Virus record (IMG/VR): IMGVR_UViG_3300028844_000425
Coordinates: 1 to 20,315 of that record
Origin: a virus
DNA length: 20,315 nucleotides
Strand: one strand, 5' to 3'
A model generated the notes under the pieces. That model was not told the DNA's origin, ran no database searches, and worked only from the letters and a program-made list of their open reading frames with translations. The stretch's first letter is position 1. Every line of letters starts with the position of its first letter. Of this stretch, positions 3,001 through 18,317 are shown piece after piece. The translations under genes and the position numbers were made by a program.

Positions 3001-3691
3001 AGAAAGAGCTATGGGTTTGGTATCTGTATTAAATCCGGGAAGTATTAAAGCAGGTCAAAAGTATCTTAATGCAAAACAATCTGAACTACTACGTGGTGAG
3101 GGTCGTGGGCAAACTGCTGCAGGATTTCCTATGCGTAAAGAAGATGCAGCATTTTTCTTTACAACAGGTATAAGAAATAATACTATGAACTTAGACAGGT
3201 CAGTAAGTTATAGTCTGTATCAAGATGCTCAAGAAGTAAATAAATCAAAAGCTAAGTTTAAAGACTATATAAAGCAGATACCTGACAAAAATTTAACAGA
3301 GGATGATATAAAGGATTTATATCAAACTTATGTAGATATACAGTTAGAAAAGAAAGAAGCGATGGCTCGTATGTCTGATAAAGCAAATATTTTTAGGCAA
3401 GTAGAGTTTTATGAAAAGGGAAAAGATGGTAAAATATACAAGACACGTTATGGTATTGATGGTATTGTAAAAGCAGCATCGGGAAAAGGTAAGTATAATA
3501 TTAATCCTAACCTGCTATACTCTCTTGTTCAAGGACCTGAAGGTCAAGGTGTATTTATGCCAGACAGTTTAAATGAAAAAGAAATACTAGGATTATTACA
3601 AGAAAGAAAGTTTCCACCATCTGTAATCAATGGTCTAAAAAGAATAGAAGCAGAACTGGCTGGTAAGTCACTAAGAAAGGTAACAGAGTAA
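2..3691 (+). CDS. Internal virion / DNA-ejection-type protein (5' end cut by window)
   Basis: Large virion protein, most like the internal core or ejection proteins of T7-like podophages that enter the host with the DNA. The frame is open from base 2 with no stop. The first start-like codon, TTG at 44, has no ribosome binding site, so the gene almost certainly begins upstream of the window. About 1,230 residues are visible. The protein is rich in Ala, Gly, Lys and helical segments. A hydrophobic stretch near residues 190-215 (counted from the TTG) could be membrane-active, and the C-terminal third is charged and helical. I see no lysozyme or transglycosylase motif. It ends in TAATG, overlapping the next start by one base. 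The role comes from size, composition and position before the lysis genes. It could instead be another large tail or core protein. Confidence 0.75.
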   Translation, partial: NQGTIKTKRDLKSFLDTNDIDFDKFMEVDKEYERRKKSGTLNDTTFSLGKVISGAVGKVAEDVGQISGDAVEFLAGKEARETVEGGVKAAADYLDEKLPTAITYAAKETFDPKMNIGEDIAAELTSFAVPAAGATKALKFVKPVTKIGKVTKAGAIGVAADVMSRGQDETFVTEFAQLVPESEEFIQKLAIDPDDSVAERRLKQIVDSAVLGGVIALPAAVAFKFLKSGGRRLFGRANAQRQNVTQQINPTPTARVTEAAVEETSPGVFNQRGRVSQILGKINTKAARLFQSTAGLPEPIFKSYLRKNQFVQASDALIRKEAKDLEKLLKQTNTDKQLVNRLLMGENLTQAELAQIPQDVQVIVNRMKLKIDNNSILIKDTLGLPENSRLGAILDPATGGSYITRTFEFSTNPKWSKDVAKAIKNELTPDAHNADIISAVQNARMHISRTNPDLSPEQINALLMDMIDRGKKGNSLDVLGEFISEGTGIGAAKILKGRKDLDKPILDFLGEVKDPVRNFTETMTNQNKLLAKARYINDVRKFAEQNLGREVQLGGLFPFLPKETTTFLRKGQFGPDIDVRSSIEDLAQKELGAFGSAGETVGLNKFVTTKEFSDMLDKGIDTFDPAGPMGRTLFGQGLQRTAAVGQAMETVFDHTAHLVNTYGMVQQLGMNGVLYRPKVAKEAYKAAHAMYQKAVKGDEQTLKFLQALKNRGIIDSSVVGENIKRNLDRFGEGTDNMENLVTKVAKAPFRGMSAVYGGVDDFGKIVAFQAEYNAYKKAFPNLPDAEVFDKVTEIVRNTMPSYTTAAPVVRALSRLPFGTYATFPAEMVRTTKNILLQGAKDIAEGKRTNNPALIRIGMRRLAGIGATTAGIEFAINNQNSEMGVSEIEKRAVNMTVPEYQRNTNKVFTQPFYKDPKTGEIMTKFVDSGTLDSLQYIKGPTRAIIGRIMAGEDVTQREIDDALPEAIAELYSPFVSEKFLTEAAINAYRGYDAEGNELSPEERAMGLVSVLNPGSIKAGQKYLNAKQSELLRGEGRGQTAAGFPMRKEDAAFFFTTGIRNNTMNLDRSVSYSLYQDAQEVNKSKAKFKDYIKQIPDKNLTEDDIKDLYQTYVDIQLEKKEAMARMSDKANIFRQVEFYEKGKDGKIYKTRYGIDGIVKAASGKGKYNINPNLLYSLVQGPEGQGVFMPDSLNEKEILGLLQERKFPPSVINGLKRIEAELAGKSLRKVTE

Positions 3692-4752
3692 TGGCTAAAA
3701 TAACAGAAGATAAAAAAGGACTGGCAGGTATTGTAAAAAACGTACCTCGTGAACTAGACATCAAAGGCCAGAAGCATATGCTTGCTTGGATTACACCTAA
3801 AGAAGGTGAAACTCTAAAAGCATTAGGTGGTGCAGGTGTAGCTGGGCCTATGGATATTCCTACTTATTTTGATGGTTTTGGTGATGACAGAACTCAGGCT
3901 GGAGAAGACTCAAGCGGTGGTTATGGTGGTGATCCGCAGGGAGACAACGTAGACAGAAGTGACGCTGGTGATGATTCCGATGATAGCCCTTCCAGAGATG
4001 TTGATAAAATTGGTTCTGATGATGACGAGAATGAAGACCAAGACGTTCAGCAGGATATAGCTTTACGAGACTACTTGGATGATAAAGAAGACCGTAACTG
4101 GGTTGAAAACCGTATGTTGAATAAGCTTAAAAAAGCTAACCTTGAACAATATACTGGTTTAAGTCCTGCTCAATATAATGCAAGAACTGGGGTATTAACT
4201 AGTTATCAAGATAAATTTTCGCCATTCCAATCAGGTCAAGCTAATGTTACTTATGATGAAGATGGTGTTATAACATCCTATGAGCAGCCAAGACCGGGGC
4301 TTGAGTATGACCCTAAAACAGACCAATATACTGGCTATAGAGAGGATGTAAATCTTCCCGGTTCTTTAGGATTTGTGGCACAGGCACTTGGATTACAACC
4401 TAATGTATACACAGGATTTGGTGTAGGGTCACAGCCTGATGAAGGTAGGGGTGGGGATGGCCCAGATAGACCTAGAATTAGTGGATTAACTTCTTTGCAA
4501 GAAGAACCTAAAGTAGAACCTGTGTCTGTATCCCCTGCTGATTATTATGGTAAGGGTATTGGCTCTGCCACTATTGATATGTCTGATCCATTACAACGTG
4601 AACAATTTTTAATGAACCTATATGGATATACTCCTAGCCCCATTGGTGCTACCTTTGATCAACCTACTAGTTCTTATACTATTCCCGGTGGTTCAAAGAA
4701 AAGTAGAACAAGGTTAAGAGGACTGGACATTTTTAAACCAGTAACATTGTAA
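3691..4752 (+). CDS. Acidic virion-associated protein, function unknown
   Basis: A 353-residue protein whose start overlaps the stop of the internal virion gene (TAATG), implying coupled translation. Residues 28-54 (LAWITPKEG then LKALGGAG) resemble a Gly-rich N-terminal motif I recall from virion-associated proteins of marine phages. Residues 61-135 are a low-complexity Asp/Glu/Gly/Ser stretch, probably disordered. The rest is rich in Tyr, Pro and Gly with short recurring YTG elements (at QYTGL, QYTGY, VYTGF). There are no catalytic motifs, signal peptide or membrane segment. Position after the internal virion protein suggests a structural or assembly role; that is inference only. Confidence 0.7.
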   Translation: MAKITEDKKGLAGIVKNVPRELDIKGQKHMLAWITPKEGETLKALGGAGVAGPMDIPTYFDGFGDDRTQAGEDSSGGYGGDPQGDNVDRSDAGDDSDDSPSRDVDKIGSDDDENEDQDVQQDIALRDYLDDKEDRNWVENRMLNKLKKANLEQYTGLSPAQYNARTGVLTSYQDKFSPFQSGQANVTYDEDGVITSYEQPRPGLEYDPKTDQYTGYREDVNLPGSLGFVAQALGLQPNVYTGFGVGSQPDEGRGGDGPDRPRISGLTSLQEEPKVEPVSVSPADYYGKGIGSATIDMSDPLQREQFLMNLYGYTPSPIGATFDQPTSSYTIPGGSKKSRTRLRGLDIFKPVTL

Positions 4753-6184: not shown

Positions 6185-6246
6185 TGTTGGATGTAGACCA
6201 TACATATTTTAAAAAATCTGTAGAAAAAAAGAAGGGTGGTAAGTAA
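6184..6246 (+). CDS. 20-aa micro-ORF in the stop-start chain
   Basis: A 20-codon ORF whose ATG overlaps the upstream TAA, and whose own TAA overlaps the start of the structural gene at 6246. Both junctions are TAATG. The peptide ends in KKKGGK, echoing the basic Lys/Gly stretch of the preceding protein, so it could be a remnant of a duplicated neighbour. It may encode a real peptide or simply carry ribosomes to the next gene. The ORF and junctions are certain; its coding status is not. Confidence 0.4.
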   Translation: MLDVDHTYFKKSVEKKKGGK

Positions 6247-7040
6247 TGGGTACGCCTAGTTCAATGACACGTACAGGAAAGCATGAGCCTTGGGAACTAC
6301 AAGTTTCTAGGGAACAAATAGCTTTCCACCAAGCATTATATAAGTTTGGATATAATGGTGATGTAAATGGAACAGAAGAAACTATTTGGTCACAGGGTGG
6401 TATCTATTCTTATCCTACCAGTGCTGCTCAATTGTATGTAAGTTCTAGCAGCACAGCAGATACTAATGGTGGAACAGGTGCTAACTCTGTAAAGATTATT
6501 GGTCTTGATGCTAATTATAATGAAGTAGAAGAAGACATTACCCTTACAGGACAGACGCAAAAGATTACTCAAAAATCTTGGTTACGTGTCTACCGTATGT
6601 ATATTACCCTTGCTGGTTCAGGTGGGGCAGCAGCAGGAACTATTTATCTTGCCAATACAGGGGCAACTGCAGGTGTGCCTACTGGTACTATCTATGCTTC
6701 TATTCTTTTAGGGGCAGCACAAACAGAAATGGCTGTGTATACAGTACCTGCAGGATATACTCTTTATTTAGATGATATTAACTTTACTGCTGCTGTTTCG
6801 CTGGCAAACTCTTATGCACAAGTTAGATTTTTACAGCGTAATTTTGGGACAAATGTTTTCCGTGAACAGCTTAGAGTTGTATTACAATCTAATACTTTTA
6901 TTGATAAGTTTAATTATCCTTTACGTATACCAGAAAAAACTGATATTGAGGCTCGTGGTCTTAGTGTAGGTAGTACTAACAATCCTATATCTGCATCATG
7001 GCAGGGTATACTTATTAAGAATGAAATACCAACAAGCTAA
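6246..7040 (+). CDS. Beta-rich virion structural protein
   Basis: A 264-residue protein rich in Ser, Thr, Gly, Ala, Asn and Tyr, typical of beta-sandwich virion proteins (tail, fibre-associated or decoration). An N-terminal segment with REQIAFHQALYKFGYNGD is familiar to me from structural proteins of marine phages, recalled without a search. The middle (residues about 65-190) alternates hydrophobic strands with Gly/Ser/Thr loops. The C-terminus reads like a jelly-roll domain (FREQLRVVLQSN, then ISASWQGILI). No enzyme motif or membrane segment. Translationally coupled by TAATG to the micro-ORF. It sits among lysis genes. Confidence 0.7.
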   Translation: MGTPSSMTRTGKHEPWELQVSREQIAFHQALYKFGYNGDVNGTEETIWSQGGIYSYPTSAAQLYVSSSSTADTNGGTGANSVKIIGLDANYNEVEEDITLTGQTQKITQKSWLRVYRMYITLAGSGGAAAGTIYLANTGATAGVPTGTIYASILLGAAQTEMAVYTVPAGYTLYLDDINFTAAVSLANSYAQVRFLQRNFGTNVFREQLRVVLQSNTFIDKFNYPLRIPEKTDIEARGLSVGSTNNPISASWQGILIKNEIPTS

Positions 7041-7076: not shown

Positions 7077-7460
7077 ATGTTAAACCTTCTGATAGGCCCG
7101 ATTGCAGACTTAGCAGGTACTTGGCTAAAAGGTTCTGTGGAAAAGAGCAAGGCCAAGACAGAGGCAAAGGTAGCCCAAGCAAAAGCTGAAGCAGTAATAA
7201 TGGAAAAAAAGGCCACTGGAGAAATCGACTGGGATTTGGAAATGGCTAAAGGAAGTCAGACATCTTGGAAGGATGAATGGCTTACTATACTATTTTCAAT
7301 CCCATTGATTTTAGCTTTTATTCCCGGTATGGAAGAGGTGGTAGCCAATGGCTTTGCACAGCTACAAGCTATGCCTGAATGGTATCAGTACAGTTTAGGT
7401 GTCATCGTTGCTGCCAGCTTCGGTGTCCGTAGTGCTAGTAAGTTCTTCGGTAAGAAGTAA
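7077..7460 (+). CDS. Holin, GTA-type 3-TM family
   Basis: A 127-residue protein matching the architecture of the GTA_holin_3TM family, which permeabilises the inner membrane so the endolysin can reach the wall. A weakly hydrophobic amphipathic N-terminus (residues 1-18) is followed by a charged Lys/Ala/Glu helix (19-50), a conserved-looking WKDEWLT segment, a strong TM at about 69-85 and a second at about 104-120, then a basic tail. An AGGAG at 7066-7070 lies 6 bases before the ATG; this is the clearest ribosome binding site on this strand. The last 66 bp overlap the 3' end of the terminase gene on the other strand. Confidence 0.75.
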   Translation: MLNLLIGPIADLAGTWLKGSVEKSKAKTEAKVAQAKAEAVIMEKKATGEIDWDLEMAKGSQTSWKDEWLTILFSIPLILAFIPGMEEVVANGFAQLQAMPEWYQYSLGVIVAASFGVRSASKFFGKK

Positions 7461-7916
7461 TTGTACATCTTCTTCTTCCTCGTAGTCTTCTACATCATCT
7501 GCAAACTGTTCGGGAAAAGCTTCTTCAAAAAGTAAATAGCACTGCTCAAATCCTAAGTTCTGCATGATACCTATAATGTCTGCTTCCAGACTTTCAGCAG
7601 TCTTATCTTCTACATCTGTATTGTTACCTCGTACACGAGACAGTAGCTCCAAAGCTTTCAAGGCTGTTGTGCCGTGTCCACCATTACGAGCTACCTCATA
7701 TTGCTTTTCAATCTCACTGATAACATCAACATTCGTTATCATTTCATTGGTGAGTTCTTTTAGTCTTTCTTTTATTCGTTCTTCTTGTAAAAGTCTATGA
7801 CCTTGGTTATAGGCAGATGCCTCACTATATCCTGCAGCCTTTGCTGCTTTAGTAGCATTTCGACTGAGGACATAGTTCTGACAAAACTGTTCTTGTTTAT
7901 CATTAAGCTGCGACAT
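7395..7916 (-). CDS. terS: Terminase small subunit (Terminase_2-like)
   Basis: A 173-residue protein expected to recognise phage DNA and start packaging with the large terminase. Residues 4-55 carry the signature of the Terminase_2 family: LNDKQEQFCQNYV, then NATKAAKAAGYSEASAY as the helix-turn-helix, then a helix with RIKERLKEL. A central helical oligomerisation region follows, and the tail (about 135-173) is strongly acidic. It is the last gene of the minus-strand block and overlaps the fusion gene upstream by 14 bp. Its stop lies 66 bp inside the convergent holin gene. The large subunit is not in the window, which separates the pair usually found side by side. Confidence 0.85.
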   Translation of the reverse strand: MSQLNDKQEQFCQNYVLSRNATKAAKAAGYSEASAYNQGHRLLQEERIKERLKELTNEMITNVDVISEIEKQYEVARNGGHGTTALKALELLSRVRGNNTDVEDKTAESLEADIIGIMQNLGFEQCYLLFEEAFPEQFADDVEDYEEEEDVQLLLTEELTSTTDTEAGSNDDT

Positions 7917-10116
7917 TTAGTAACTCAGAGTAATGTTTTTCTTTACCACGTTTAGACTGTTTCCAAACTGTTGAAGCAAGAGTATCTTCGCCATGAAAAT
8001 TAATACCCATATCCATTTCCATGTTATCAAACAGCTTCTCACAATCCTGTGCCATAGCAAGTAGTTCACCTGTAGTCCAGAACTTATATCCGCCTGTCTC
8101 TACCTGCATATATTTAGGTTTAGTTTGCTCTGTATCAGTCTTTTCTTTTTTCATTTCTTCTGTTATATTTGAAACAGAACAATCAAAACCAAACAGTTCA
8201 AAGTTTCTAAATCCTAGTGTGTGGGCAATAGCAATAGTTCGCATAGCTGCACAAGTACCACCAGTAATAAGAGTAGAACCCTCTTCAATACCTGTTGACT
8301 TGTCTACAACAATCTTATCTTTTACATTCATATCACGTAATGCATCTGAGTAAGCTTGCCAACCCTTTATATTAGCACCCTGTTCAAGTAAGTATTTAGT
8401 AACAGAAGGGTCAGTCATAGAGGCAACAAGCATAATAGTATTGTCATCTACTTTCTTAAACAAATTCTCAAGCATCATTGGATAACTATGCTTCACACAA
8501 AATACTTTACCTTTTGTTTTCTTAATTACCTGTTTTAATTTTTTCCAATTGGTACTAGCTCCACCAGAAACAATAATAGCTGTTTCGTTATTAATTTTAC
8601 TTGTCTTAATCCAATCAAAGTCTTTAATAAGTTTCTTGTTTTCAATTACATTGTTAATAATTTCTTCCTTTGGTCGTGAATCTTTTGGAGTAACTACAAT
8701 AGGTACTCGTGTAAATTCTTCTGGAAGTTTTGGTGTACCTTCTTTCATAGCAACAAAACAAAGATGTGTTATGCCCCCACCAAGAACCATGTCAGAACTA
8801 GGAAGAACAACTTTACCATAGGCTTCTATTTCTTTCATGAGTTTATTAACACCCATGTGTTCATCTTTAGGTTGATTTCCTTCTTTGTCCTTACCAAAGT
8901 AATCATCAAAGACAAGAATAGGAATGTGTTTTAAGTTTTCAAAGTCTGTCTTGACAGTTTCATAGGAATGCCCACCATCAATGTATGCAAAGTCTGCATC
9001 TTTAACGATTGAAGAATTGGATAATGTTTCTTTAGTATCTCCTTTAAATAAATCAAAAGTAAATTCTTTATTAACCTTTGACATTCTGTAAGAAAAATCC
9101 TCAAGCCGCCTGTCTACTGCAGCTATAGTATTATGTGCCTTACTATTCATTTCATATGCATCTAATTCTTCTGTAGCTTCTTCAAACAAATCATATCCAA
9201 CGTAGTGTACTTTGTCTGAATGTTCAAAAGCAGCAAGAGCCATTTCAATAGCACGGCCACCATTCCATGTACCTGTCTCAACAATTTTCTTTGGTTTGTA
9301 GAACCGTACCATATCTGCTAACTGTTTGTATCTACGAGGTCCAGTTACATCTGGAGCAACATCTGTTTTACTTAGGTTCTTTTTTAGATTACCTTTAAAG
9401 TGATCAAAGTATTCTGACAAGGGTGACTGTGCAAACGCTGCTAATCCACTAACGCCTTCTGATAAGTTGTTAGTGACCATACCGTGTGCTTTGTAGATGT
9501 TGAGGAGTCGTTCAAAAATAAATCCGTCATGCCACTCTCTGTATGCGACTGTCTCTCCAATAGTGTAGGCACCCCTAAAATCAGCAATGATGCTGCAGCT
9601 ATTATGACTAGATAAATTGAAGCCCATAAAACTTGTTTCACTGTAATCTACATCCTTTCTTCCTAAGTGTACTAGGTCTGCCCGATCAGGCAACCATTTC
9701 TGTACGTCTTTAACATCAAGTCTTTTCTTTGTAATGGTATCTGCATCAAGCCAAATCATCCAATTGCTTTCGTCATACTCGTCTTCCATCATTTCAAATG
9801 CAAGATCAGACAATGCATAAACTTTGTGGCACCATTTGATAGCATCAAGACGCCAGTTGTATTGCATCTTACCACCTTCTGTACCATCATGAATCTTCAT
9901 ACGTTCACGGTACTGCAACATCTCCCCTACATCGTTAAGGTTCCTGTACTCAATACATTCAGACTGAGGTGGATTATAGCTTTGAATATCAAAGTCATGG
10001 TAGTAAGCCACAAGTTTAAAGTGTTTTGGATTCCACTTTTCAACTACACTTTCAAGCATCTGCTTTGCATATTCATTATAACCTAATTCACTAAAAGATG
10101 TTACAAATACGTACAT
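7903..10116 (-). CDS. Glycosyltransferase-methyltransferase-DUF115-like fusion protein
   Basis: One continuous 737-residue ORF with three apparent domains. Residues 1-240 look like a GT-A glycosyltransferase: an N-terminal Rossmann-type start and a metal-binding DxD in WLDADT (D124, D126). Residues about 255-460 look like a class I SAM methyltransferase of the Methyltransf_24 type: VETGTWNGG (279-287), YVGYDL, YIDGGHSYE (378-386), FDDY (403-406). Residues about 505-650 resemble DUF115/MAF_flag10 proteins of flagellin-glycosylation loci: IIVSGGAS (514-521) and ELFGFDCS near 640. The likely role is glycan or nucleotide-sugar modification of host surface, virion or phage DNA; substrate unknown. 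The start overlaps the upstream glycosyltransferase stop (TAATG). Domain calls are motif-based; the third is least certain. Confidence 0.7.
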   Translation of the reverse strand: MYVFVTSFSELGYNEYAKQMLESVVEKWNPKHFKLVAYYHDFDIQSYNPPQSECIEYRNLNDVGEMLQYRERMKIHDGTEGGKMQYNWRLDAIKWCHKVYALSDLAFEMMEDEYDESNWMIWLDADTITKKRLDVKDVQKWLPDRADLVHLGRKDVDYSETSFMGFNLSSHNSCSIIADFRGAYTIGETVAYREWHDGFIFERLLNIYKAHGMVTNNLSEGVSGLAAFAQSPLSEYFDHFKGNLKKNLSKTDVAPDVTGPRRYKQLADMVRFYKPKKIVETGTWNGGRAIEMALAAFEHSDKVHYVGYDLFEEATEELDAYEMNSKAHNTIAAVDRRLEDFSYRMSKVNKEFTFDLFKGDTKETLSNSSIVKDADFAYIDGGHSYETVKTDFENLKHIPILVFDDYFGKDKEGNQPKDEHMGVNKLMKEIEAYGKVVLPSSDMVLGGGITHLCFVAMKEGTPKLPEEFTRVPIVVTPKDSRPKEEIINNVIENKKLIKDFDWIKTSKINNETAIIVSGGASTNWKKLKQVIKKTKGKVFCVKHSYPMMLENLFKKVDDNTIMLVASMTDPSVTKYLLEQGANIKGWQAYSDALRDMNVKDKIVVDKSTGIEEGSTLITGGTCAAMRTIAIAHTLGFRNFELFGFDCSVSNITEEMKKEKTDTEQTKPKYMQVETGGYKFWTTGELLAMAQDCEKLFDNMEMDMGINFHGEDTLASTVWKQSKRGKEKHYSELLNVAA

Positions 10117-10892
10117 TAAATTACTTCTCCTATCATTTTGTCCATAAGGACTTTACTTTTAAAGGCTTGCCACTCACCTGCATATTCAATGTCTGACTTT
10201 CGTTTAGGTTCCCAATCATCAAACCAAGGACCACCTGTCGTAAAGTGAACATTTTTAGGCGAAATGTTTTCAGATGACCAGCCATCTAACCAGTTCCATT
10301 CAGGGTGAATAGATCCAATCTCTTCATTTTTTAACCAAGAGAAGCCATGTAACCAACCACCAGTCTTAGTGTTTACATCATCAACTGTTAGATTTAGATT
10401 TGCTTCATGAGCACAGTTCCATAAAATAAAACTAGACCAGTTTTTACGATTATAATTTTGTTGAACTTGTCCATCCATCTTCTTTGTATCTGATGGATTG
10501 TAATCATGCTTGACTACTTGTACTGCATACTCTTCATTCTTACCATATGTTTCAAACAATTCTTCAATGTCTGTACGAACAAACATATCTGAATCCATGA
10601 ATAAAGCCAAGCCATCATACTGGTTAAGTGCAGGGATTAGAAACCTGCTAAATGTAAAGTCAGTACTAAATGGTCTACCATCAAACTCATCTATCCGGGT
10701 ACGAGATGTAGCATCACTATCAAACCTAATAGTCCTGCGATACAAACCTGCTCTACGTAATGCAGATTGGACGATAGGAATGATGTCATACTTGTCATTA
10801 AATCTAGTAATTGATTTACGTAATACCTCATATGCTTCGTGCTCCCTAGAATCATATCCAATATAAATTACAGGACGTTTTTCAATAAACAT
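10116..10892 (-). CDS. Glycosyltransferase, GT8-like GT-A fold
   Basis: A 258-residue protein with GT8-like features: an N-terminal IYIGYDSREHEAYEV strand-loop, STDFTFSRFLIPAL, the metal and nucleotide-sugar binding DxD in LFMDSDMF (D100, D102), and a C-terminal VHFTTGGPW segment. No TM segment, so cytoplasmic. It is first in the last minus-strand unit, with AGAGG about 8 bases before the ATG and a sigma70-like promoter just upstream. It is translationally coupled to the fusion gene, which carries a second glycosyltransferase domain, so the two may act in sequence on one acceptor. Donor and acceptor cannot be inferred. Confidence 0.8.
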   Translation of the reverse strand: MFIEKRPVIYIGYDSREHEAYEVLRKSITRFNDKYDIIPIVQSALRRAGLYRRTIRFDSDATSRTRIDEFDGRPFSTDFTFSRFLIPALNQYDGLALFMDSDMFVRTDIEELFETYGKNEEYAVQVVKHDYNPSDTKKMDGQVQQNYNRKNWSSFILWNCAHEANLNLTVDDVNTKTGGWLHGFSWLKNEEIGSIHPEWNWLDGWSSENISPKNVHFTTGGPWFDDWEPKRKSDIEYAGEWQAFKSKVLMDKMIGEVI

Positions 10893-10923: not shown

Positions 10924-10952
10924 ATGATATCAAAATATATCTAGTATGTCAA
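10924..10952 (-). promoter_or_regulatory. Sigma70-like promoter for the glycosyltransferase-terS unit
   Basis: Reading on the minus strand, TTGACA (10952-10947) is separated by 17 bp from TATCAT (10929-10924). This is a perfect -35 and a 5/6 -10 at optimal spacing. Predicted initiation near 10917 leaves a leader of about 25 nt before the ATG at 10892. The -35 overlaps the stop codon (10949-10951) of the upstream 217-aa gene. Assigned by eye. Confidence 0.7.
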
Positions 10953-11602
10953 TCTTTTTTTTCTGAGGTTGATTTCCAAAAGTATTCGTCTGTATCACCA
11001 AGTGTACCCCAACTTGTAAATGGGTTTTCCACTTCATAATATTCTGTAGATACTTTGAAGTCAGGTGTCTTTACTTCTTCTGGTGAAAGGGACACATCAT
11101 ATATTCTCATTCGATTGTTAGGATAAAGACAGTACTGTCCATTCACAAGCTCGATACAGTTAAATGATTTGTGTTCTTGAGGTATCTCACTTACATTACA
11201 ATCTACTTGCTGGATGTTACCATGAAAATTATCAAGAGTAAAAACATACTTACCATTAATCATGCCATGGTTCTTTGTTCTGGCTTGAAAGCCCATTGAA
11301 CCAATGAATTGTTTATCTATAACTGTTACATCATAGTCCATACAATTCCAGAACTGTAGCTCGTCAAGAGGCAGATCAGGATCTGGAAGCTTTGGCTCTG
11401 ACAAGAAGGCAGAGATAGGCAGCTTGTCATACATAGCTGCATAACTTGGAAGATAGGTTTCAAAATAAAAGGTTCTACCGGGCAACGACTTTGCCGTTAC
11501 CCAGTAGCCTTCCACGAACTCCCCATGTCCAGAGGTATGGTCTGTAAGATATTCTTTTCTTACCCATACCTTTTGGGGCGGAATATTTACTATGTTACTC
11601 AT
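10949..11602 (-). CDS. 217-aa hypothetical protein downstream of ribonucleotide reductase
   Basis: A soluble protein without recognised catalytic motifs. It is rich in aromatic residues and Pro with a beta-type pattern, and has Cys at the WNCMDYD, VDCNVSE, FNCIEL and QYCLYP positions. The start overlaps the ribonucleotide reductase stop as ATGA, so the two are translated together and may be functionally linked, for example in nucleotide metabolism; that link rests only on position. I do not recognise the family. The -35 of the next promoter overlaps its stop. Confidence 0.65.
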   Translation of the reverse strand: MSNIVNIPPQKVWVRKEYLTDHTSGHGEFVEGYWVTAKSLPGRTFYFETYLPSYAAMYDKLPISAFLSEPKLPDPDLPLDELQFWNCMDYDVTVIDKQFIGSMGFQARTKNHGMINGKYVFTLDNFHGNIQQVDCNVSEIPQEHKSFNCIELVNGQYCLYPNNRMRIYDVSLSPEEVKTPDFKVSTEYYEVENPFTSWGTLGDTDEYFWKSTSEKKD

Positions 11603-12966
11603 GCTGCTTGAATGTCTACAATTTCACATACACCTGCAGTACAAGCCAACTCACGCCCACCTGACGTTGTGTCTTCCTTCTCATAGTCTTGTAACCACAT
11701 CCAGTCAATGGGTGGTGGCATTTTACTTTTCATTTCTTCATACTCCTCTTTTGTACAATCCTGATAAGGTGCTTGCTGATATGTATGTTCACTAAATGGA
11801 AGGAAGCTAATGCCACTTACATCGTCAAAGTTTTCATACACCCAAGCACCCACATCAAACCATTCATCTTCTTTAACAGAGATGGTCACTGATGGCTTAT
11901 GCTCACACCAGTTCTTCTGATATGTCAACCACAGATCAAGCTGCTCAATAGCAGTCATCTCATTACGAGTTACTGCACCAGTTGGTGATTTCATTGGGAA
12001 ACTAAATACTGTAGTACTATCAGGCTTCATTACATCAGGCTCACTAGGAATACCCATAGACACCATAAACTGTGTCAGTGGATCTTTATTATCCCCACGA
12101 ACAGTACGAATGTAGTATGGATTATGCCGTGCATGAATACCAGATGCACTATCTACCAACTGTGATACTGTACCTGATGGCTTGACACAGGTGATTGCTG
12201 CAGCCTGTGGAATGCCTAATTCTTTGGACAGCTTTTCATTTACTGTGATGGCAGTGCCTTTCATCTGACCAAGGATATGACTGATGTTCATACCATGCTT
12301 TGCATCTTTACCAGACATTAACTTGTTATCTAATATACCTGTAAGAGATACACCAAGTAGTCGTTCTTCTTCTGTATTATTCTTCCAAATGTTTCTAAGA
12401 TATTTAAAGTTAGTTAAAGTAGCTTGGAATGTTCCCAAGATGGTTGCTAATCTAACCTTTTGTGTTAGTGTTTCGGTGGTGTCGTTCTCACGAACAACTA
12501 CTTCCGAAAGATTGCAGAACTGGTATGGACGTAAGATAATTTCTGAACAGGGATTACATCCAAACATATGGTCAGGATCACGCCTACCATTCTTAGCAGC
12601 TTGCTTCTGTGCAGACTGACGATTGAAGATACCACGTTCACCTGACTTACCACGTTCACCTGACTTTGATTCATATAGAGACAACCACTCACGCATGAAT
12701 GTACCCATCTGGGGCTTCTCTTTGTAAGCCACAGAGTTATTAGCCAATGCACGTTGACCCTCATTCTCCCACCACTGACCTGACTTAGCATGGGCCATCT
12801 GGTCATCATTCAGGTTTGACAGGCTAATAAGGGCTGACCTACGAACACCACCTACGACTACCACTTCACCAATCTTACACATGATGTCGTGACATTCGAT
12901 TGGATATAGTCTACGTCCTGCTGCAGCCTTGAACTTCTCAATACAAAAGTTGAATAGATCAATCAA
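11599..12966 (-). CDS. nrdJ: B12-dependent ribonucleotide reductase, C-terminal catalytic part (frameshift-split)
   Basis: The catalytic half of a monomeric class II (RTPR-like, adenosylcobalamin-dependent) ribonucleotide reductase, which makes deoxyribonucleotides without needing oxygen. Visible here: HDIMCKIGEVVVVGGVRRSA; NPCSE with the candidate thiyl-radical Cys140 and Glu142; FCNLSE with partner Cys151, spaced 11 as in C408/C419 of the Lactobacillus leichmannii enzyme; and the redox pair C442/C447 near the C-terminus (ACTAGVCE). The apparent start is a TTG with no ribosome binding site inside a 71-bp tandem duplication, so this is not a natural beginning. Removing one copy joins it in frame to the upstream piece, giving one 652-residue protein. 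Confidence 0.9.
   Translation of the reverse strand: MIDLFNFCIEKFKAAAGRRLYPIECHDIMCKIGEVVVVGGVRRSALISLSNLNDDQMAHAKSGQWWENEGQRALANNSVAYKEKPQMGTFMREWLSLYESKSGERGKSGERGIFNRQSAQKQAAKNGRRDPDHMFGCNPCSEIILRPYQFCNLSEVVVRENDTTETLTQKVRLATILGTFQATLTNFKYLRNIWKNNTEEERLLGVSLTGILDNKLMSGKDAKHGMNISHILGQMKGTAITVNEKLSKELGIPQAAAITCVKPSGTVSQLVDSASGIHARHNPYYIRTVRGDNKDPLTQFMVSMGIPSEPDVMKPDSTTVFSFPMKSPTGAVTRNEMTAIEQLDLWLTYQKNWCEHKPSVTISVKEDEWFDVGAWVYENFDDVSGISFLPFSEHTYQQAPYQDCTKEEYEEMKSKMPPPIDWMWLQDYEKEDTTSGGRELACTAGVCEIVDIQAA
12631..12666 (-). repeat. 18-bp tandem duplication inside the reductase gene
   Basis: Two exact 18-bp copies, 12631-12648 and 12649-12666, give a duplicated six-residue unit (KSGERG twice) in the reductase. 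It is in frame, so harmless to reading. The second exact tandem duplication in this gene. Confidence 0.85.
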
Positions 12967-13072
12967 AGGGGCAGGTCCTGATGCTCGTCCACCAAAGGTC
13001 TGAACTTCTCAATACAAAAGTTGAATAGATCAATCAAAGGGGCAGGTCCTGATGCTCGTCCACCAAAGGTCT
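12930..13072. repeat. Exact 71-bp tandem duplication that frameshifts the reductase
   Basis: Bases 12930-13000 are repeated without mismatch at 13001-13071, with one further matching base. The unit is 71 bp, not divisible by three, so it shifts the reading frame of the ribonucleotide reductase. Both copies encode the same protein segment (around PLIDLFNFCIEKF). Deleting one restores an open frame from 13628 to 11599, exactly 653 codons including the stop. This may be a true mutation or an assembly artefact. Confidence 0.97.
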
Positions 13073-13628
13073 TCAATCTTGCACCCGCTGGACGTACTTC
13101 TGAAACATCCCACTGTGGAACCTGACCAGCATAAAGCATGGCAATAAGTTCACGAAGTGACTTAGCCCATCCCGGTCTGCTATCACCCACTTTAATTACA
13201 GTTGTTGTCTCGTGGAAAGATTCATTTACTGTTGGTAATTTATCCACGTTAAAGCGTTCCACAGAGAAGCCTACGCCTGTACCACACATCAAGATGTACA
13301 TACACTCATCGAAAGCACGAGGGTTGTCTACAGGGATATAAGAGCAGTTGTAGCCACCTACATGGCAACGGTCTAGAGCAGGTCCACTTGTCATCAAAGC
13401 CCTCATGCTGGGCATTATAGACTGATTAAGAACACCCTCTTCTAGTTCTGCACGAAGCTTATTTGTTAGTTTATAATTGTGATTCTTTGCCAGATGATTT
13501 TCCATGTAATCAAAGTATCTTTGTACTGTTTCAGCCCACGTTTCTCTACGCTGCTCATCTTCTTTCCAACGAGCATAACGAGACAATGCGATAAAACTTT
13601 GGTAGTCTGTAGGTAAATAATTGTTCAT
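12963..13628 (-). CDS. nrdJ: B12-dependent ribonucleotide reductase, N-terminal part (frameshift-split)
   Basis: The N-terminal part of the same class II reductase. It contains an N-terminal helical region with SRYARW and RRETWAETVQRY, the substrate-proximal Cys candidates in CHVGGYNCSY (C88, C95; C95 best matches C119 of the Lactobacillus enzyme), ILMCGTGVGFSVER, and GGRASGPAPLIDLF. I place the start at the ATG at 13628, not the upstream in-frame ATG at 13673, because GAAAGGGA sits just before it and the sequence then matches the family. After residue 209 the frame runs into the second repeat copy and ends in about 12 unrelated residues, at a stop at 12963. As written, the gene could not make active enzyme. 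Confidence 0.88.
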   Translation of the reverse strand: MNNYLPTDYQSFIALSRYARWKEDEQRRETWAETVQRYFDYMENHLAKNHNYKLTNKLRAELEEGVLNQSIMPSMRALMTSGPALDRCHVGGYNCSYIPVDNPRAFDECMYILMCGTGVGFSVERFNVDKLPTVNESFHETTTVIKVGDSRPGWAKSLRELIAMLYAGQVPQWDVSEVRPAGARLKTFGGRASGPAPLIDLFNFCIEKFRPLVDEHQDLPL

Positions 13629-13663
13629 TGATATCCCTTTCTTGAACTGAGTTTGAACTTGGA

Positions 13664-13692
13664 ATTGTATCACAATATGACGGTTATTACAA
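13664..13692 (-). promoter_or_regulatory. Sigma70-like promoter for the ribonucleotide reductase unit
   Basis: On the minus strand, TTGTAA (13692-13687) is followed after 17 bp by TACAAT (13669-13664). The -35 matches 4/6 and the -10 5/6. The -35 begins two bases after the stop of the upstream 110-aa gene. Initiation near 13657 gives a leader of about 29 nt to the ATG at 13628. A short dyad (ATTGT, 3-bp spacer, ACAAT; 13664-13676) covers the -10. Weaker than the other three promoters. Confidence 0.5.
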
Positions 13693-16200: not shown

Positions 16201-17850
16201 TTAATGAGTTTCTGCCCAATTGTTTCCAATTTTATACTCACTATCCAGAGTACAATTAACAGACAAACTTTTTTCTACTGTCTTCATTGCTCTTTGAGTG
16301 AGTTCACCAAATCTTTCGGATTGATCGGCACGAATCTCAAACTGATACTCATCGTGGATAGACGCAACAAGATTGTAATCATAATCCTGTTGCGCCATTA
16401 AAGTTATTTGTCGCAACCATTCCTTGCAAATAATTGCACCTGCACCTTGAAGTAACAGGTTCATGGCTGCATGTTGCTGTCGTACTTTCAAAAGTCTACC
16501 ATCAAGTCCACGAATATATCCTGTGCCAGATGCTCTATCAACCTTATCACGCAAGGTCTTTAGTGCTGGCATATTCTTCATGAACTTATCCATGATGACC
16601 TTACCTTCTTTTGCACCACCACCAACAATGCTACCAATCTTAGCTGGCCCTGCCCCATAAATTAGAGCATAGATAAATGTCTTTGCTGCATCTCTGGTAG
16701 GTAGGCCAGCAGCTTTCTGATTTGCAGTATGGATGTCACCACCCACTACCTCATCAGTAAATTTCTTGTCACCCATGTAGTGTGCCAAGCATCTCAGTTC
16801 AAGTGAACTGGCGTCACAACCTAACAGCTTGTACTTATCACTGCTAGTCATCCAAACCTGTCTACATTCCTTGCCGTAGGGAGAATAAACGGCAGGGATC
16901 TGAGCCATGTTGGGTGAGTTGTGTGCCATGCGTCCACTGATGGCCTTCAGAGTAATAACTCTGCCGTGAACTTTGCCATCATCTTTCACAACGTCAAGCC
17001 ATGACTTGACTTGCGAAACTCTTTTTTGCAATAGAAGATACTGTGCAATCTTCTTTGCCTCTGGTATGTCAACGTCTTTAAGTGTACCTTCATCTACAAT
17101 AGGTTGCCCGGTTGGTGTGAAGGTCTTAGGCTCCCAACCCTTACTCATCAAACGTTTACCAATCTGCTGTCTTGATGCAGGATTAAACACCTCTACATTA
17201 TCCTTCAGTCTGTTACCAGTCTTCTCTGAGTAACGTTCTGTTATGATAGGTGGGAAGATGTCCTGCATCTCTTCTTCAATTTCTGTAGCCTGTTCTGATA
17301 GTCTTGCTACCAGACAAGAAGCTTCAGGTATGTTCAAGGTAAATCCATTGGCCTCTTGCTTGTCAACGATTGCTCTTACTTGATGCTCAAGCTTAATAGA
17401 TTTACCAGAGTATTTTTTAAGATATGGTAATAAGTAATTATATAACTTAGTAGTAACTTCTACATCTCTTATACAATAAGTCAACATCTCTTGCGAGAAA
17501 CCAGAGAAGTCATTAAAGTCAATCTTACTCATACCTAATCTTTCACCCCATGCAGCAAGTGAATGACCACCTTCAAGAGATGGGTCATGTAGTTGCGACA
17601 TGATAAGTGTGTCACGAACTTTACTGAGAGGTATTTTACTACCAGTCAGTCTGTTCACTACAGGTGCATCGAAAGACACACCATTGTGCATAATGAAGAC
17701 ATCAACATTCTCTGACCATGCAGGAAAGTTCTTGATGTCTTCACCATACCATGTGTCTACAACACCTGTATCTAAATCCTGTGCAGCAATACAATGTATT
17801 ACAGTTGCATTGATGTCATCAGTTTCGATATCAAGTACTACACGTTTCAT
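16201..17850 (-). CDS. DNA polymerase, family A (T7 gp5-like), Tyr-762 type
   Basis: A 549-residue replicative polymerase with a 3'-5' exonuclease. Exonuclease motifs: D7/E9 (DIET), N56 to D61 (HNGVSFD), and Y125 to D129 (YCIRD). Polymerase motif A: CDASSLELR with D346. Motif B: R386, K390, Y394, Y398-G399. Motif C: HDE at 499-501. All catalytic residues are present. Motif B has Tyr at the position of E. coli Pol I Phe762, as in T7; the published viral polymerase scheme links Tyr762 to virulent phages. It is much shorter than T7 gp5 (704), so a thioredoxin-binding loop is probably missing. The start overlaps the upstream stop as ATGA. Confidence 0.96.
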   Translation of the reverse strand: MKRVVLDIETDDINATVIHCIAAQDLDTGVVDTWYGEDIKNFPAWSENVDVFIMHNGVSFDAPVVNRLTGSKIPLSKVRDTLIMSQLHDPSLEGGHSLAAWGERLGMSKIDFNDFSGFSQEMLTYCIRDVEVTTKLYNYLLPYLKKYSGKSIKLEHQVRAIVDKQEANGFTLNIPEASCLVARLSEQATEIEEEMQDIFPPIITERYSEKTGNRLKDNVEVFNPASRQQIGKRLMSKGWEPKTFTPTGQPIVDEGTLKDVDIPEAKKIAQYLLLQKRVSQVKSWLDVVKDDGKVHGRVITLKAISGRMAHNSPNMAQIPAVYSPYGKECRQVWMTSSDKYKLLGCDASSLELRCLAHYMGDKKFTDEVVGGDIHTANQKAAGLPTRDAAKTFIYALIYGAGPAKIGSIVGGGAKEGKVIMDKFMKNMPALKTLRDKVDRASGTGYIRGLDGRLLKVRQQHAAMNLLLQGAGAIICKEWLRQITLMAQQDYDYNLVASIHDEYQFEIRADQSERFGELTQRAMKTVEKSLSVNCTLDSEYKIGNNWAETH

Positions 17851-18317
17851 AGCTCTACTAACTCTGCCCTTTCATATGGTATGTGAAAAAAGCTTTCACC
17901 TTTTACACGATAGCTGAATAGCTGTTTTACTTCTGATTCGGCAACAACATAATCTTTAATACGCCATGCCATCTTTGCATCGTTACGAATCACATAGAAA
18001 TTAAAGAAGTGATTGTCTGCTCCAAGTTCTGCCATTCGATTTATTAGTTTGTGTTTGCGATAAGGTATCCTGATTTCCTTCCAAGTATCAGGCCAGTCAC
18101 CCTTCCACTGGTTTTTCATCTCTGCTTCTGAGAAGTAGTTATTATCCCCCTTTTTACTCTTGATGTCAAATGAAAAGTCTTCTTTGCTATCAAGAATTGT
18201 ATGTCCATTTTTAATTAGGTATCCAATAACTGCTTCCTTTGCTTTGTTATCATTCTCCTCATAACTAGCACGAATAAAACGTCTATTGTATGCTCCATCT
18301 ATCTTTGCTACTTTCAT
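17847..18317 (-). CDS. Putative PD-(D/E)XK-like protein between helicase and polymerase genes
   Basis: A 156-residue protein joined to both neighbours by 4-bp ATGA overlaps, so tightly bound to replication. It has an early helix (about residues 20-38), then SFDIKS (D51) and FSEAEMK near 62-68, which together could be the Asp and E-x-K of a PD-(D/E)XK nuclease fold. WKEIRIPYRK and a strand pair (HFFNFYVIRND) follow. The nuclease reading is tentative, since the key spacing is not canonical. The protein could instead be an inactive relative with a structural role at the replisome. Confidence 0.5.
   Translation of the reverse strand: MKVAKIDGAYNRRFIRASYEENDNKAKEAVIGYLIKNGHTILDSKEDFSFDIKSKKGDNNYFSEAEMKNQWKGDWPDTWKEIRIPYRKHKLINRMAELGADNHFFNFYVIRNDAKMAWRIKDYVVAESEVKQLFSYRVKGESFFHIPYERAELVEL

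Follow-up and report, generated by a model that had tools for sequence, protein, structure and literature searches.

A three-domain phage fusion protein and its GT8 partner as a candidate device for building methyl-capped glycans

The virus record IMGVR_UViG_3300028844_000425, whose full 20,315 bases form the window analysed here and supply all coordinates below, carries a gene (7903..10116, minus strand, ATG start) for a 737-residue fusion protein that joins a GT-A domain, a Methyltransf_24/TylF-type O-methyltransferase of the kind dependent on S-adenosylmethionine (SAM), and a Maf/MptE-like domain. Next to it lies the gene for a GT8-like glycosyltransferase. We propose, tentatively and with somewhat less than even confidence, that the two proteins would act as a device that draws on host sugar donors to build a glycan with an O-methyl cap, and that its likeliest acceptor would be a phage structural protein. 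Phage-encoded protein glycosylation has been established experimentally in few phages. With a fusion that is core and strongly conserved in many aquatic phage contigs, sugar decoration would be a fixed part of the life of a common phage group, and the fusion itself offers a single expressible protein for asking about Maf-type transfer in phages and about the reason for methyl caps.

Domains of the fusion protein and genes of its operon

The three-domain architecture of the fusion is correct at the level of folds and motifs, both of which were computed, as were the conservation, operon structure and core status of the cassette. Residues 1-250 (domain 1; 9367..10116, minus strand, as for every cassette feature below) match no Pfam, NCBIfam or PDB sequence, and no known glycosyltransferase family is assigned to them by sequence. 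The AlphaFold2 model of this domain from L005, a near relative of the window, has a predicted local distance difference test score (pLDDT) of 81.6, and its best Foldseek match in PDB is the GT8 xyloside xylosyltransferase XXYLT1 (1.8e-8, probability 1.00), followed by further GT-A enzymes that include GT6 alpha-1,3-GalT (2.2e-8) and glycogenin; the template modeling scores of about 0.45-0.5 support a fold class only. A W-x-DAD metal/nucleotide-sugar motif occupies residues 122-126 (9739-9753). Its W122 and DAD are invariant in the 35 diverse relatives that we aligned, and D124-A125-D126 comes directly after model strand 119-123, which is the place expected for a DxD motif. Domain 1 was also considered as a duplicate of the GT8 partner, and this was rejected at a profile-profile probability of 1%, so that the two are fold relatives at most.

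Domain 2 (residues 258-458; 8743..9345) is a class I SAM O-methyltransferase of the Methyltransf_24/TylF/CmcI type. Methyltransf_24 matches residues 279-397 of the window copy above its curated Pfam cut-off (3.4e-9) and recurs in all 35 relatives, with TylF found in 25 and RMNT_CmcI in 8 of them (E<0.1); in the window copy itself neither of the latter profiles reaches its cut-off (TylF, 13.8 of 23 bits), and Methyltransf_24 is the only one to pass. The window sequence carries the motifs ETGTWNGGRA (280-289), DGGHSYE (380-386) and DD (404-405). Among the relatives the SAM loop and DGGxSYE are invariant and D404-D405 nearly so, and we take the DG-H...DD residues to be the metal ligands of TylF-type enzymes.

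Domain 3 (residues 462-737; 7906..8733) is Maf/MptE-like by Pfam and by structure model, carries the motif GGTCAAMRTIAIAHTLGFRNFELFGFDCS at residues 619-647, and includes an FGFDCS that is invariant in the relatives. The MptE-like family PF01973 is matched in 35 of 35 relatives (E<0.1). In the window copy its match at residues 486-649 falls slightly under the cut-off (4e-7; 30.3 of 34.6 bits), probably due to a window-only, in-frame deletion of 81 bp (27 residues) after residue 550, whose junction at 8466..8469 was located by comparison with relatives including L005. The L005 domain scores above the cut-off (8e-14, 52.2 bits), and its model (pLDDT 87.5) has the Maf glycosyltransferase 5MU5 as its best PDB match (9e-8, probability 1.00), ahead of an archaeal MptE/HPPK enzyme (8SD5, 1.3e-5) and, further down, thiamin pyrophosphokinase. 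NCBIfam returns a weak, partial match to the flagellin-modification protein PseD (33.9 bits against a cut-off of 670), and the full-length PseD/Maf architecture is therefore not present in the fusion. We infer the catalytic activities of the three domains from their folds, motifs and conservation.

The GT8-like partner (GT-A, 258 residues; 10116..10892) exceeds the curated cut-off of Glyco_transf_8 (5.3e-6; 26.6 against 24.3 bits) and matches phrog_28018 (7e-56), for which the function label is unknown. Its gene overlaps that of the fusion by a single base (TAATG). On the other side, the fusion gene is overlapped by 14 bases by terS, the gene for the terminase small subunit (7395..7916; Terminase_2, 2.7e-17, and synteny), which is always downstream. 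A strong sigma70-like promoter, TTGACA-17-TATCAT, precedes the GT8 gene (10952-10924; 11/12 match), and promoters matching at 10/12 or better occur upstream of GT8 in 51% of 49 relatives versus 6.6% of shuffled sequences. Many members of the group, though not all, can thus express GT8, fusion and terS independently of the replication genes. A sequence-only reading of this DNA had proposed the three domains, the GT8-like partner, the 1-base overlap and the dedicated promoter, and all are borne out here. Nor did we find a missing fold, or a loss of the DxD and SAM-binding residues from all homologues, either of which that reading had named as grounds for giving it up; the motifs are invariant or nearly so.

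A core cassette under purifying selection

A scan of viral contigs for the fusion recovered 305 stretches that encode relatives, a stretch not necessarily being a distinct virus, and the carriers are uncultured, mostly marine phages. Among the best 80 loci, which were kept, the order GT8, fusion, terS is found wherever the contig reaches far enough, and it is unchanged in a relative of only 49% identity (L432). To avoid circularity, we also chose loci by their DNA polymerase; in all 26 that extend at least 2.5 kb past the ribonucleotide reductase (RNR) gene, the cassette lies downstream of RNR. In mean amino acid distance the fusion (0.26) falls between RNR (0.21) and lysozyme (0.28), with GT8 and terS both at 0.33, and the ratio of nonsynonymous to synonymous substitution (dN/dS) is about 0.05-0.18 in every fusion domain for all pairs except near-identical ones. 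The fusion is thus a core gene of this phage group with all three domains under purifying selection, and the related stretches together with the low dN/dS of each domain argue that its open reading frame (ORF) is not a product of chance.

Several other accounts of the gene were tried and set aside. A recent, host-derived moron is disfavored by the core status of the cassette and by the lack of any relative when genome contigs from 84,980 species of bacteria and archaea were searched, the latter being weak evidence given that only two short patterns were used. Membership in an anti-phage defence family found no support, as the fusion has no PADLOC match and GT8 has only a chance-level match to Csn2. 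Finally, in some pairs of genomes, such as L011 and the window, GT8, fusion and terS differ between near-identical flanks. We do not claim this allele swapping as the sign of an arms race, because flanking genes are mosaic as well and the overall distances correlate with those of RNR (0.87).

Proposed mechanism, acceptor and alternatives

The most economical account of these genes is still the pathway for building and capping a glycan that the sequence-only reading had suggested. GT8 and the fusion would work as one device during infection, with three glycosyltransferase-type sites (GT8, the GT-A domain 1 and the Maf-like domain 3) and a SAM-dependent sugar O-methyltransferase (domain 2), and they would assemble a short glycan and cap it with an O-methyl group. 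The Maf-like domain may start the chain on serine or threonine, or else contribute an acidic sugar; chain extension would fall to the GT-A enzymes and blocking of the end to the methyltransferase, and the tethering of domains would allow an intermediate to be handed from site to site. The sugar donors would be supplied by the host, because we found no gene for making nucleotide sugars in the phages: Epimerase, NTP_transferase and CTP_transf_3, which represent NDP-sugar epimerase, nucleotidyltransferase and CMP-sugar synthetase, have no match in 12 records, several of which are incomplete, and phage-made donors were rejected on this basis. We infer both the order of the steps and the acceptor.

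For the acceptor, virion proteins are slightly favoured over the host surface, and DNA appears unlikely. This preference for a protein rests on the modification of protein serine and threonine by Maf enzymes, which O-glycosylate flagellin (PMC11339370), and on the precedent of Corndog-type phages discussed below. Through the pairing with terS, decoration may also be linked to DNA packaging or to particle maturation, an idea open to testing. A more specific version, which we regard as unlikely, is that a one-protein line of GT-A, sugar O-methyltransferase and Maf-like sites in series, aided by GT8 and sharing its operon with terS, would decorate a conserved component of a widespread group of uncultured phages with a methyl-capped glycan that may contain a nonulosonate. 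If true, this would be, to our knowledge, the first Maf-type protein O-glycosylation system of a phage, and it would be core rather than accessory.

Five observations weigh against the proposed decoration of a structural protein. First, the cassette, together with terS, closes the replication/RNR operon, away from the capsid and tail genes. Second, its glycosyltransferase parts lack detectable homology to those of Corndog in a profile comparison with JangDynasty gp33-36. Third, a search of the structural proteins of G004 for Ser/Thr-rich stretches identified no acceptor site; the richest stretches belong to large proteins, probably of the tail or fibres, and are uninformative in this respect. 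Fourth, domain 3 in the window's own copy of the fusion is missing 27 conserved residues. Fifth, Maf and MptE share a fold, and domain 3 could accordingly be a diphosphokinase-like or non-catalytic module.

Early in infection, the same chemistry could instead be directed at a glycan of the host surface, whether in lipopolysaccharide (LPS), capsule or flagellum, where it would block the adsorption of competing phages and that of progeny to debris. We consider this possible, with confidence that is low. Enzymes of the GT8 and TylF/FkbM types are frequent in LPS synthesis, and the operon sets the cassette beside replication genes. Moreover, in Pelagibacter phage Mosig the homologues of domain 1 and GT8 accompany two FkbM methyltransferases and a sulfotransferase in what resembles a surface-polysaccharide cluster. 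Surface-glycan clusters are common in phages, and similar ones have been interpreted as modifying LPS or capsule (PMC7824862). However, surface-modification genes are described there as sporadic and polymorphic, whereas this cassette is present at 26 of 26 loci, evolves at about the slow pace of RNR and lysozyme, and has no adjacent gene for membrane anchoring or polymer handling. The superinfection-exclusion target put forward by the sequence-only reading is hence hard to sustain in the form of a sporadic moron.

It is also conceivable, and rather unlikely in our estimation, that the fusion is partly dead in the window virus, with the 27-residue loss inactivating domain 3 while GT8, the GT-A domain and the methyltransferase remain; this would be compatible with any of the other explanations. 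By comparison with L005, in which most of the neighbouring genes are 96-100% identical, the 81 bp are absent at 8468, and this in-frame loss strikes the part of domain 3 that is most conserved. Nearly all aligned relatives keep the missing residues (consensus GIxPFACVILDPRPIDGxSTHGVVRKD), many columns being 90-99% conserved, and the deletion takes away the conserved pattern GIxPFxCxxLDPRPIxGxSTHGxxRKD. Yet selection on domain 3 is not relaxed, since dN/dS between the window and L005 is 0.072 in this domain and 0.059 and 0.052 in the others. The same contig also bears two window-only duplications in RNR, which is a single ORF of about 646 residues in relatives. One is an exact tandem duplication of 71 bp (12930-13072) that splits RNR into ORFs 11599-12966 and 12963-13673; the other is an in-frame duplication of 18 bp (12630-12666, giving SGERGKSGERG) present in one of 35 sequences checked. 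With these duplications in the same contig, an error of assembly or a lesion that arose very recently becomes equally likely, and such an origin explains the gap best. The three domains described by the sequence-only reading stand, and the gap is what it overlooked. Our functional statements about the fusion rest on the intact copies of its relatives.

An improbable alternative holds that domain 3 is a diphosphokinase resembling MptE or thiamin pyrophosphokinase, or a docking module, and that the product is a small pterin/sugar metabolite or a modified cofactor. The naming of PF01973 after MptE in Pfam, the archaeal HPPK enzyme as second-best structure and the lower-ranking thiamin pyrophosphokinase point in this direction, but Maf is the better match (9e-8 versus 1.3e-5), the weak NCBIfam match is to PseD, and both partners of the domain are glycosyltransferases. 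Least probable of all, and very much so, is the glycosylation and methylation of phage DNA bases that the sequence-only reading had also entertained: the replication operon with RNR and terS, a best PHROG match labelled DNA methyltransferase, and the existence of glycosyltransferases that hypermodify phage DNA (Pyle 2024, as cited in PMC12619734) speak for it, but that PHROG match spans only positions 306-461 of 599, 12 records yielded neither Thymidylat_synt (PF00303, the ThyA/dCMP hydroxymethylase family) nor ThyX (PF02511), and the methyltransferase of the window has the TylF/CmcI-type DGGHSYE/DD motifs of a sugar O-methyltransferase with no DPPY- or PCQ-type DNA-methyltransferase motif.

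The phage group and its relation to known systems

The RNR of the window shares 75% DNA identity with that of phage HMO-2011, a representative of a type that has RNR and terS as common or core genes and a DNA polymerase marked by DnaJ-like CXXCXGXG repeats (PMC9038755); the text of that paper does not mention glycosyl genes. The 549-residue polymerase of the window has no such repeats, and its closest isolates are the Pelagibacter phages HTVC115P, HTVC104P and HTVC103P (46-47%), so we regard the window as a relative of these podoviruses rather than a member of the HMO-2011 type. The genes found between RNR and GT8 differ across the group. In the window this interval includes a 217-residue protein (10949-11602) of phrog_3704 (label ferredoxin, moron), which has no Pfam match, is found in only part of the group and resembles a stretch of Synechococcus phage S-SKS1; between its gene and RNR, L005 and L079 carry 255 bp that are missing from the window at 11596. 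Three further genes drew our attention. A hypervariable 353-residue protein (3691-4752), encoded between a 1215-residue structural gene and the lysozyme region, has many insertions and deletions relative to L005 despite its mostly 96-100% identical neighbours. A 264-residue protein (6246-7040) apparently comes in two or more alleles, about 90% or 48% identical to that of the window, in otherwise similar genomes. A 156-residue ORF (17847-18317) between the DNA polymerase and primase-helicase genes shows a D...E-x-K-like pattern (FSFDIKSKK...EAEMK) and no significant family match.

Among known systems, the Corndog type (cluster O mycobacteriophages, here JangDynasty gp33-36) offers the closest parallel in composition: phage-encoded, clustered genes for three glycosyltransferases and one O-methyltransferase adjoin the portal and capsid genes, and modification of the virion was proposed (PMC4351075). 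PMC11600133 and PMC12619734, citing Freeman 2023, report that these enzymes modify the tail tube as well as the capsid. The JangDynasty O-methyltransferase belongs to the same Pfam families as domain 2, TylF and Methyltransf_24. In contrast, the Corndog-type genes are separate and lie between portal and capsid protease, their glycosyltransferases are of other families, and no Maf-like domain was detected in them; the four cassette profiles gave no match to gp33-36 at E<10. Because the glycosyltransferases are not homologous, the resemblance appears to be one of composition and not of membership.

Domain 3 is closest to Maf/PseD proteins, with which it shares PF01973, its fold and its best solved structure (5MU5). 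The N-terminal domain of Maf is a degenerate Rossmann domain that weakly resembles methyltransferase motifs (PMC11339370), whereas the phage fusion has an intact methyltransferase and a GT-A domain ahead of its Maf-like part. The MptE-type 6-hydroxymethylpterin diphosphokinases (8SD5) share the Pfam family and the fold, but the structural match is weaker and the phage context is one of glycosyltransferases, not pterin synthesis. Two deposited proteins of uncultured Caudovirales phages, compared by their structural match to domain 3 and total length only, are similar and carry no assigned function: A0A6J7X5Q0 ('Methyltransferase domain containing protein', 714 residues; 4e-23, 34% identity) and A0A6J7XC21 ('MptE-like', 685 residues; 3e-16, 20% identity). 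Our literature searches found no description of this fusion architecture, which we place within phage-encoded glycan modification. Of the candidate system put forward by the sequence-only reading, the function has no description, but examples of the kind of protein already sit in databases under generic names, in records of uncultured phages.

The pairing also occurs independently: Mosig, a Pelagibacter myophage, and about 80 contigs related to it encode a stand-alone homologue of domain 1. In most of them a GT8 homologue (Glyco_transf_8, 30.9 bits in Mosig) lies beside or near it, often with an overlap of 1 or 4 bases. The Mosig operon (L002:5940-10897; Mosig_00186-00191) combines these two with the two FkbM methyltransferases, a DUF6716-like putative glycosyltransferase and the sulfotransferase, and is possibly a cluster for a sulfated, methylated glycan. 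As in the window, the domain 1 and GT8 homologues are adjacent in one operon with methyltransferases; they differ in that the domains are unfused, FkbM enzymes and a sulfotransferase take the place of the fused partners, and domain 1 precedes GT8. Because the pair recurs in Mosig and its relatives unfused to a methyltransferase, we conclude that GT-A/GT8 is an old, conserved working unit to which methyl-transfer enzymes have been joined in varying ways.

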